In this document: one piece after another, positions 9,062 to 12,132 of the stretch
How positions within the stretch are numbered: the first letter of the stretch is position 1
How the letters are laid out: the number at the start of each line of letters is the position of its first letter
Source: Holdemania massiliensis AP2
GTDB taxonomy: Bacteria; Bacillota_I; Bacilli_A; Erysipelotrichales; Erysipelotrichaceae
Reading direction: 5' to 3'
DNA length: 64,000 bases
Assembly: GCF_000327285.1 (NCBI RefSeq)
Contig: NZ_HE998567.1
Span: 822,290-886,289 of the forward strand
Made by a program: the position numbers and the translations under genes
Notes under the pieces: generated by a model
Seen by the model: only the letters and a program-made list of their open reading frames with translations
Databases searched by the model: none
What the model was told of the DNA's origin: nothing

Positions 9062-9143
9062 CCAGCCGAAAGCGTTTCCGCAGGATTTTCGGGATGATTT
9101 TTACCGGAGTTCTTAGTATAATAAAGACCATGAGGTGAACGGT

Positions 9144-9932
9144 ATGAAAGAATTTCAAATGTTTTTCTTTGACGTCGATGGAACGCTTTTGGATAATCGC
9201 AGCCATCGGATTTCCCCGGCAGTCATTGAAGCCCTGCACACGCTGCAGCAGCGTGGCAAAAAGATCGTGATCAGTTCAGGCCGGGATGTCCATACGATCA
9301 TGTCGATGCCGCAGCTGGCCGCGATCCAGTGGGATGGCTATATCTGCCGCAACGGCAGCGTTGTTGCCGACCAACATCAGAATGAGCTGTACCGCTATTT
9401 CTTCGATCTGGAAACGATGCACAGACTCGAAGAAGTATCCCAAAAACTCGGATCCCCCATTCAATACATGGGCCATACAGACTGGCTGAACCTACCACCC
9501 ACCGAGGATTTCAGGGCCGCCTGCGCTTTCTTTCACCGTGATCCCAACGCGATTGAGATACGTCCGACCTTGCCCGACGAGCAGGCCACCATGGCGCTGG
9601 CTTTTGACAAAGCGCAAAGCGATTATACCGAATATCGTCAAATTCCCGGGCTGACTGTGCTGCCGACACCGTTTCACTATGCCGATTTAGTCGCCAAAGG
9701 GATTGACAAAAGCACTGGCATTACATTGCTTTGTCAGCATCTGAACCTTAATCCGCGGGATACCATGGCTTTTGGCGATGGGATCAATGATTTGGAAATG
9801 CTGCAGGCTGCCGGCATTGGCGTGGCCATGGGACAGGGACGGGATGAAATTAAAGCTATCGCTGATTATGTCAGTGACAGCGTGGAAAAGGACGGCATTG
9901 TCAGCGCATTGAAAGCCTTTGGTCAGATTTAA
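9144..9932 (+). CDS. Cof-type HAD-IIB phosphatase
   Basis: 262 residues from the ATG at 9144; a longer frame beginning with GTG at 9135 starts inside the AGGTG ribosome binding site and is unlikely. Motif I is FDVDGTLLD (both catalytic aspartates), motif II lies in 'VISSGR' and motif IV is GDGINDLEML. The large alpha/beta cap between motifs places it in the Cof/YidA group, which dephosphorylates sugar phosphates, flavin precursors or similar small molecules in the cytoplasm. It is followed by its own terminator. Confidence 0.9.
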   Translation: MKEFQMFFFDVDGTLLDNRSHRISPAVIEALHTLQQRGKKIVISSGRDVHTIMSMPQLAAIQWDGYICRNGSVVADQHQNELYRYFFDLETMHRLEEVSQKLGSPIQYMGHTDWLNLPPTEDFRAACAFFHRDPNAIEIRPTLPDEQATMALAFDKAQSDYTEYRQIPGLTVLPTPFHYADLVAKGIDKSTGITLLCQHLNLNPRDTMAFGDGINDLEMLQAAGIGVAMGQGRDEIKAIADYVSDSVEKDGIVSALKAFGQI

Positions 9933-9966: not shown

Positions 9967-9998
9967 TTATTTGACTTAGTCAAATAAGTGATTATAAT
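9967..9998 (+). promoter_or_regulatory. Promoter with overlapping MarR-type operator
   Basis: TTGACT (9971-9976), 16-base spacer and TATAAT (9993-9998). The -35 box lies inside a perfect 21-base palindrome, TTATTTGACT-T-AGTCAAATAA (9967-9987). MarR dimers typically bind such 18-22 base dyads and block RNA polymerase, so autorepression of the downstream operon by its first gene product is likely. Confidence 0.85.
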
Positions 9999-10020
9999 GA
10001 AGCGTATCAGGAGGTGTCTT

Positions 10021-10443
10021 ATGCAAGTTTCTTTTTCTTATCTGATCTGCCAGCTGCGCAAGGATTACACGGCCTTTCTGCAGTCGCGGCTGGATGCGTT
10101 TGAATTAACCGTCGGTCTGTTCCCGTATCTGATTTATCTTGAGCATGCCGGTGCCTGTACCCCCTCCGCAATGGCAAAGCAGCTGCGCCAGGATAACGGC
10201 CACATCACCCGCTGTCTGGACAAGCTGGAAAAACTGGACTGTCTGAAGCGTTGCCGCAGCGAACAGGATGGCCGCGCATTTGTCGTATCGCTGACGGAAA
10301 AGGGCCGGCAGATCTGTCAGGAAATCACGGCGGCCAACCGGCAATGGGAGCAGCGGGCGCTCGAAAACCTTTCAGAGGATCAGAAAAATCAGCTGAATCA
10401 GCTTTTAACTCAGGTGGTTCAGGATCTGAGGCCAGCCCGATGA
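10021..10443 (+). CDS. bilQ: MarR-family regulator of the bilirubin-reductase-type operon (BilQ-like)
   Basis: 140 residues from the ATG at 10021, which has AGGAGGTG 5 bases upstream. The winged helix is visible from 'CTPSAMAKQLRQDNGHITRCLDKLEK' (in pieces) to the wing 'CRSEQDGRAFVVSLTEKGR', the most conserved MarR segment. It is first in an operon with the reductase and flavodoxin genes (four-base ATGA overlaps throughout) and sits directly behind a palindromic operator. By position and family it corresponds to bilQ, described next to bilR and bilS in gut Firmicutes. The inducer is presumably bilirubin or a related tetrapyrrole; that is inference. Confidence 0.8.
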   Translation: MQVSFSYLICQLRKDYTAFLQSRLDAFELTVGLFPYLIYLEHAGACTPSAMAKQLRQDNGHITRCLDKLEKLDCLKRCRSEQDGRAFVVSLTEKGRQICQEITAANRQWEQRALENLSEDQKNQLNQLLTQVVQDLRPAR

Positions 10444-11546
10444 AGCACGCCTGCTTAGACCCGATTGTTATCGGCGGCTGTGAGTTCAAAAACCGGATCT
10501 TTTTCGCACCGACAACGTTGGGCTTAAAAGCGGAGGAAAAAACGCTTAAGCTGAAAGCGATTGCGACGGGTCAGACGGCGCTGATCATCCTGCCGGACAT
10601 TCCCGTCCTAGGTGCCGGCAGCCTGCAGAATCATCGGACATTTGCGGCTTATCAGCAGCTCATCCAGCAGCTGCACGCGGAAGGCTGCAAGGTTTCTGCC
10701 CAGCTGCATCTGTCGGATACCAATTTTAAAGTGATGCTGAAATCGGTGCCGGCGTTATTCACCCATAAGCTCAGCGCGGATCAGCTGCGCCAGAAAGTCA
10801 ACGATTCTGCCGCTGTCACAGTCAACGAAATGTCGTTATCCCGAATCCAGGAAATCATTACTGCTTTTGGCCGCAGTGCCCAGCTGGCCCAAAAAGCCGG
10901 GTTCGACATGGTGCAGATTCATGGTGATCGGCTAGTCGGCAGCTTTAGTTCCTCGCTCATCAACCAGCGCAAGGATGACTACGGCGGCAGTTTAACGCAT
11001 CGAATGCGGTTTGCCCTGGAAGTCATCCGTGAAGTTCGGCAGCACTGCACGCTGCCCATCGATTATAAATTGGCCGTTCGCCAGACCGATCCGGATTACG
11101 GCAAAGCCGGCGTTTGGGAGCAGGATTTAGATCCTGTGGTCAGCTGGCTGGATCAGGCTGGCGTTGACTGCTTCCACGTTACCTTAGCCAATCATGGCGC
11201 TCTGACTGATACAATTCCGCCGGCCAATCATCCAGTTTTCTCTGGGGAAGGCTGTTTTCACAAATTTGCGGAGCAGGTCAAAGCTCTGACAGCCAAACCG
11301 GTAATTGGTGTCGGCAGTCTGCGCCATCCGGATATGATTGATCAGGCGATTGAAAGCGGACGCATCGACGCGGCTGCCATGAGCCGGCAGCTGATCGCGG
11401 ATTCTAACTGGGTTATTAAACTCATGGAAGATCATCCGGAGCAGATCCAATATTGTATCGGATGCAATCAGAAATGTCTGCAGGGTTTGATGAATCATCA
11501 GGGAATTCATTGTATCTATGAACAGAAAGGAAGTAAAATGGAATGA
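10440..11546 (+). CDS. bilR: Bilirubin reductase BilR (Old Yellow Enzyme family)
   Basis: 368 residues from the ATG at 10440, which overlaps the stop of the MarR gene. The TIM-barrel FMN fold is shown by 'IGGCEFKNRIFFAPTT', 'VSAQLHLSD', 'FDMVQIHGD' and 'SSLINQRKDDYGGS'. Ordinary members have an HGAHGYL-like loop; here it is HGDR (161-164), the active-site signature reported for bilirubin reductase. The C-terminus has CIGCNQKC plus a later cysteine, the four-cysteine iron-sulfur site of the 2,4-dienoyl-CoA reductase group, but the FAD/NADPH domain of that group is missing. Electrons probably come from the adjacent flavodoxin. Predicted role: stepwise reduction of bilirubin bridges to urobilinogen in the gut. 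The identification rests on motif plus neighbourhood. Confidence 0.82.
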   Translation: MKHACLDPIVIGGCEFKNRIFFAPTTLGLKAEEKTLKLKAIATGQTALIILPDIPVLGAGSLQNHRTFAAYQQLIQQLHAEGCKVSAQLHLSDTNFKVMLKSVPALFTHKLSADQLRQKVNDSAAVTVNEMSLSRIQEIITAFGRSAQLAQKAGFDMVQIHGDRLVGSFSSSLINQRKDDYGGSLTHRMRFALEVIREVRQHCTLPIDYKLAVRQTDPDYGKAGVWEQDLDPVVSWLDQAGVDCFHVTLANHGALTDTIPPANHPVFSGEGCFHKFAEQVKALTAKPVIGVGSLRHPDMIDQAIESGRIDAAAMSRQLIADSNWVIKLMEDHPEQIQYCIGCNQKCLQGLMNHQGIHCIYEQKGSKME

Positions 11547-12055
11547 AAATCTCGATTGTCTATCAAAGTTTGACCGGAAATACCCGTCAGCTGGCAGAAG
11601 CTGTCCAAGCCGTTCTGCCAAGTGAAATGCTTTTCTACATCGGAACCCCGGACACTGAAGCGCTAAAAGCAGATTTGATTTTTGCCGGATCCTGGACTGA
11701 CAAAGGGCTCTTTTCCCAACCGATGCTTGATTTTCTGGCACAATGCCACAACAAGTCTCTGGCCTTGTTTGCGACCTGCGGTTTTGGCCAGGCAGAAGAA
11801 TACTATCAAGCGATTCTGCAGCGAACAGCCGCTAAAATTCCTGCTGACAATTTGATTTTGGCCAGCTTTGCCTGCCAGGGACGTATGCATGAGTCCGTCA
11901 AACAGCGCTATCAAACGATGCAGGCCAAGGAGCCGGATAACCCACGCTGGACTTCCTTGCTGGAAAACTATGACAGCGCTTTATCCCACCCTGACAATAC
12001 CGATTTACAGCGCTGCCAACAGTTTGCCCGCGATGTTTTGACAAAAATAAAATAG
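11543..12055 (+). CDS. bilS: Flavodoxin-like electron carrier (BilS-like)
   Basis: 170 residues, overlapping the stop of bilR by four bases. The N-terminus KISIVYQSLTGNTRQLAE contains the flavodoxin phosphate-binding loop (S-x-T-G-N-T), and 'FAGSWTDKG' and 'LFATCGFG' match the loops that hold the isoalloxazine ring. It probably supplies electrons through FMN to the reductase, which lacks its own NAD(P)H domain. A flavodoxin next to the MarR and OYE genes is the reported bilQRS arrangement. A terminator follows. Confidence 0.82.
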   Translation: MKISIVYQSLTGNTRQLAEAVQAVLPSEMLFYIGTPDTEALKADLIFAGSWTDKGLFSQPMLDFLAQCHNKSLALFATCGFGQAEEYYQAILQRTAAKIPADNLILASFACQGRMHESVKQRYQTMQAKEPDNPRWTSLLENYDSALSHPDNTDLQRCQQFARDVLTKIK

Positions 12056-12093
12056 AGGAAAAATCTCTCACTGACACGATGTTTGAGAGAACC

Positions 12094-12132
12094 AAAAAAT
12101 CAGCAGAAAACAAATTTCCGCTGATTTTTTAT
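12094..12132. terminator. Bidirectional terminator
   Basis: AAAAAATCAGC, a 15-base loop and GCTGATTTTTT. The A/T-flanked stem can act on both strands, ending the bil operon from the left and the methyltransferase gene from the right. Confidence 0.8.

Follow-up and report, generated by a model that had tools for sequence, protein, structure and literature searches.

The window, the 64,000-nucleotide stretch of the Holdemania massiliensis AP2 genome that was analyzed, carries on its forward strand three tightly packed genes, encoding a MarR-family regulator of 140 aa (bilQ, 10021..10443), a short-form bilirubin reductase of 368 aa (bilR, 10440..11546) and a flavodoxin of 170 aa with the FMN phosphate loop SLTGNT (bilS, 11543..12055). 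The bilQ/bilR and bilR/bilS junctions both read ATGA, with 4-nt overlaps. The first gene extends from an ATG at 10021 to a TGA at 10443; an ORF finder lists a GTG-initiated extension to 9988, and we regard the ATG as the better start, since AGGAGG precedes it and the GTG would fall between the -35 and -10 boxes. Transcription would begin from a sigma-70 promoter on the same strand, TTGACT - 16 bp - TATAAT (9971..9998), which matches 11 of 12 consensus positions (-35 at 9971-9976, -10 at 9993-9998) and is arranged alike in relatives. Its -35 box is covered by a perfect palindrome of 21 bp at 9967..9987, TTATTTGACTTAGTCAAATAA, with the core TTTGACTTAGTCAAA. The palindrome is built as TTATTTGACT-T-AGTCAAATAA, two 10-nt arms that are 100% complementary, and it is the sole perfect odd palindrome with 10-nt arms in the window, where 0.15 were expected from mononucleotide shuffles. 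An intrinsic terminator hairpin, whose 11-bp outer stem leads into a run of T, follows the genes on the forward strand (12094..12130); it is preceded by a second hairpin (12064-12090), the region folding with z = -5.5, and was missed by a simple terminator scan, for which the long, interrupted loop is the probable reason. Directly upstream of the operon lies a gene for a Cof-type HAD-IIB phosphatase (9135-9932). This layout agrees with the preliminary description of the locus, which had named a 21-base palindromic operator over the promoter, then MarR, FMN reductase and flavodoxin genes overlapping by four bases, and a terminator after them.

All three proteins exceeded the cut-offs of the corresponding NCBIfam models. 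BilR scored 501.3 bits against NF045592, an equivalog-domain model of the BilR N-domain (curated cut-off 425), while BilQ reached 175.1 bits against NF045593 (cut-off 125) and BilS 211.3 bits against NF045594 (cut-off 155), both genes being adjacent to bilR. Pfam assigned MarR, Oxidored_FMN and Flavodoxin_3 domains, respectively. At the catalytic loop the reductase carries HGDR in place of the HSAHGYL, HFAHGWL, HGAGYYL and similar sequences of the other host OYEs compared, and the loop has two residues fewer than that of 1ps9. The motif CIGCNQKC is present, and the Fe-S cysteines, as read from the sequence, are spaced C-x2-C-x3-C-x11-C. A C-terminal flavin/NAD(P)H domain is absent from the 368 residues, so the protein matches the BilR-short subtype (about 370 aa).

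Our main reading, to which we assign a probability of roughly 0.92, is that of a self-regulated operon for the reduction of bilirubin and biliverdin, fed by BilS, with divinyl-urobilinogen as the expected product without BilV. A BilQ dimer would occupy the palindrome at the -35 box and repress the promoter of its own operon until a ligand, probably a bile pigment, releases it. Electrons would reach BilR from the flavodoxin BilS, which in turn is probably reduced by pyruvate:ferredoxin/flavodoxin oxidoreductase (PFOR), an enzyme that is encoded in the host genome (1666 bits) and could plausibly fill this role. Long BilR has flavodoxin-like and NAD(P)H domains that are missing from the short form, for which bilS supplies a flavodoxin, and short bilR was expressed together with bilS in earlier work (PMC10769871). 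We infer, as the literature has done, that BilS is the electron donor of BilR.

The end product depends on a further enzyme. According to a 2026 preprint (PMC13252198), the action of BilR on bilirubin and biliverdin is confined to the C5/C15 methine bridges, the vinyl groups are reduced by BilV, a vinyl reductase, and bilV is almost never present in genomes with bilR-short. A BilV profile, built from AHAH genes located beside long BilR or in genomes with long BilR, gave a best score of 347 bits in the host genome, as compared with 1291 bits in the control G043, whose BilV is one of the profile's own members. The host genome is 96.8% complete, so a bilV gene may have been missed. Since no BilV is detectable in the host and vinyl reduction needs BilV, the predicted product, following the preprint, is probably divinyl-urobilinogen and not full urobilinogen. 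Of the earlier proposal that the strain reduces bilirubin to urobilinogen, the bilirubin-reducing bilQRS identity is retained, and urobilinogen as its end point probably goes too far, no BilV having been found. The best surviving alternative, though an unlikely one, is that the strain makes full urobilinogen alone, through relaxed BilR specificity or an unrecognized vinyl reductase; the host has several other long OYEs, but none of the host OYEs compared carries the AHAH motif or has a BilV-like score, and although the 2024 paper reported urobilin itself as a product of short bilRS, detected from E. coli carrying these genes (PMC10769871), this is at odds with the 2026 preprint, where BilR alone yielded only divinyl products (PMC13252198). 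Absence of BilV predicts vinyl-bearing urobilinoids from this strain, and this is relevant to the mixed products that have long been observed in faecal cultures.

In a maximum likelihood tree of 38 proteins, with no functionally characterized sequence included by name, the window BilR and two congeners grouped together (100/100) inside a clade of short HGDR forms (99/96). This clade was sister to the long HGDR forms, short and long BilR being united at 100/99, and BilV (AHAH) and other OYEs, the host's included, fell outside the BilR clade. Phylogeny had been named in the preliminary description as the check on whether the reductase belongs among ordinary enoate reductases; such a placement is not borne out, because BilR lies in the short HGDR clade. 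With three proteins over their cut-offs and an HGDR-bearing BilR in the short-BilR clade, the operon is, judged from its sequence, an ordinary and well-supported member of the known bilirubin-reduction system of the short BilR type. The curated models, motif, operon order and tree likewise support the original assignment as bilQRS with a carrier-dependent short BilR, and the HGDR and CIGCNQKC motifs and lack of an NADPH domain on which it drew are all confirmed in the protein sequence.

The nearest named relatives found, by a scan that may leave out close relatives, were short BilRs of Agathobaculum at about 54% identity. The host genus is represented by three other genomes, two of which have the same operon, at about 78% identity, with the same gene order and with the upstream HAD hydrolase gene kept in the same place beside it (L038, L039); in the third, of 2 Mb, no BilR exceeded the cut-off. 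A deep-branching reductase of the short HGDR type, from a Eubacteriales MAG (L066, 5983-8177), has bilQ downstream instead of upstream, and this locus contains two operator-like sites 34 bp apart.

More doubtful than full urobilinogen production is the proposal that BilR is an OYE paralog within the HGDR clade and has as its true substrate not bilirubin but another bilin or linear tetrapyrrole (for example biliverdin, a dietary phycobilin or a chlorophyll catabolite). Its appeal comes from birds, which excrete biliverdin and in which short BilR dominates, from the activity of C. difficile BilRS on biliverdin (PMC13252198), and from the protein remotely resembling CpeT bilin lyases that accompanies BilQ in some operons; however, bilirubin is a substrate of short BilRS from C. 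difficile as well as from C. symbiosum (PMC10769871), and the window BilR lies in the short HGDR clade. An ordinary enoate or xenobiotic reductase (2,4-dienoyl-CoA reductase or YqjM type) that stands beside a flavodoxin by chance is hardly credible, given that HGDR in a shortened loop replaces the usual catalytic loop and that the equivalog score, the tree and the operon agree in indicating BilR. What speaks for this reading is the solved structure that is closest in sequence.

Turning from the enzyme to its control, the palindrome at 9967-9987 is probably the BilQ operator. Its core, TTGACnnnGTCAA, is common to the bilQ upstream regions of other loci, even though the BilQ proteins of other genera share only about 25-35% identity with that of the window. 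Across 21 bil loci, TTGACnnnGTCAA sites with at most one mismatch numbered 37 in the 6.5 kb upstream of bilQ/bilR versus 19 in 296 kb elsewhere, and within 300 bp upstream such sites preceded 15/16 BilQ genes (those over the NCBIfam cut-off) versus 0/37 other MarR genes (those below it), counts that do not represent independent events, since many loci are related to each other. Four of the 16 BilQ genes had already been seen before the test; among the 12 new ones, 11 had a site. The site usually occurs in two copies, and wherever two were found before bilQ their spacing was exactly 28 bp. In these pairs the first site contains the -35 hexamer, the -10 box (mostly TATACT) follows 17 bp later, and its last T doubles as the first T of the second site. 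Only the first site is present in the window and in its congeners, where the promoter spacer is 16 bp. A mismatch-free YTTGACTWAGTCAAR form occurs once in the host genome, at the bil promoter, so the BilQ regulon of this host may consist of the bil operon alone. Looser patterns, with any inner bases, appeared at chance-level frequency across whole genomes, and our claim is therefore limited to sites at bil genes. Nine loci with genes for long BilR, BilV or both were also read, and the operator was absent from all of them.

Among the papers searched, no published account of this operator was found; the only one on BilQ together with BilS, the 2024 BilR paper (PMC10769871), is silent on it, the 2026 preprint (PMC13252198) does not mention BilQ, and neither describes how the pigment is sensed and the genes are switched on. 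The BilQ operator is apparently an undescribed DNA switch, and the new content of this study lies in the operator and in the wider regulon that it implies, the enzyme being already known. Gut bilirubin reduction affects serum bilirubin and jaundice, and a defined operator makes pigment sensing testable and provides a sequence by which further bile-pigment genes could be sought.

Among relatives, operator sites also occur at genes apart from a contiguous bilQRS. In one genome (G027) bilR is unlinked from bilQS, with paired sites at both places, and in two genomes of one genus (G594 and G598) bilQ heads an operon with a protein of ~182 aa under an operator pair, the unlinked bilR having its own pair in G594 and a single site in G598. 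This ~182-aa family was found in 14 of 316 genomes of the order and not in the host genome, and only four members occur with BilQ and operator sites (L074, L076, L102, L103). Its only recurrent Pfam match was CpeT/CpcT, a cyanobacterial bilin-lyase family, in 10/12 members, below the curated cut-off (best E 0.0018). Because the curated CpeT model gave no match at E <= 0.001 in 21 genomes, the link comes from sub-threshold hits only; the family profiles had no match among PDB sequences, and no publication joining CpcT, CpeT and bilirubin was found. The CpeT likeness is, at the level of sequence, a lead and not a result. In two genomes with the BilQ-CpeT-like pair (G038, G157) no BilR exceeded the cut-off, and BilQ may therefore have a role that goes beyond reduction.

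Several further arrangements were seen. The other members of the ~182-aa family (L124-L136) have no BilQ or operator pair nearby; one of these loci (L135) is in the small genome of the host genus (G001), in which the CpeT-like gene is present without BilQ or operator and there is no bilR over the cut-off. Pairs of bilQ and bilS without an adjacent bilR were found at L071, L073, L075, L105 and L108, with bilR elsewhere in the genome for the pairs of G027, G048, G433 and G434, and none over the cut-off in G356. A predicted membrane-like protein of ~109 aa, without a significant Pfam match, recurs beside bilQ/bilS (L071, 2472-2801; L074, 1911-2237; L102, 1161-1490).

We see an even chance that BilQ is a repressor that senses bile pigments and has a conserved operator embedded in the promoter (two TTGACnnnGTCAA sites at 28-bp spacing, site 1 supplying the -35 hexamer and site 2 starting with the last T of the -10 box), through which it controls bilR, bilS and, in some relatives, the CpeT/CpcT-like small protein, in cis and in trans. 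If true, the bile-pigment regulon would be wider than the reductase alone.

Among known systems, BilQ shows a general resemblance to FabT-like MarR-family autorepressors, winged-helix regulators with a palindromic operator over their own promoter, from which it differs in the operator sequence, TTGACnnnGTCAA, found before none of the 37 non-BilQ MarR genes, and in the fixed 28-bp spacing of the pair. Enzymes of the 2,4-dienoyl-CoA reductase type share with BilR the FMN TIM barrel and the 4Fe-4S motif CIGCNQ-C, but have no HGDR, carry a C-terminal FAD/NADPH domain and act on a different substrate. The BilR-insertion or long BilR forms with BilV, of Ruminococcus gnavus and Faecalibacillus intestinalis (PMC13252198), share the HGDR active site and the methine-bridge reaction, whereas they carry additional fused domains (flavodoxin-like and NAD(P)H), often neighbor bilV, and lacked a BilQ-type operator in the nine loci read. 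Closest are the short-BilR bilQRS operons of Clostridioides difficile CD3 and Clostridium symbiosum (PMC10769871), with the same three genes, HGDR, a single-domain reductase, a separate flavodoxin and a MarR regulator. Compared with these, the operon of the window represents another lineage, and its promoter is a single-operator variant of a bil promoter that usually carries two.
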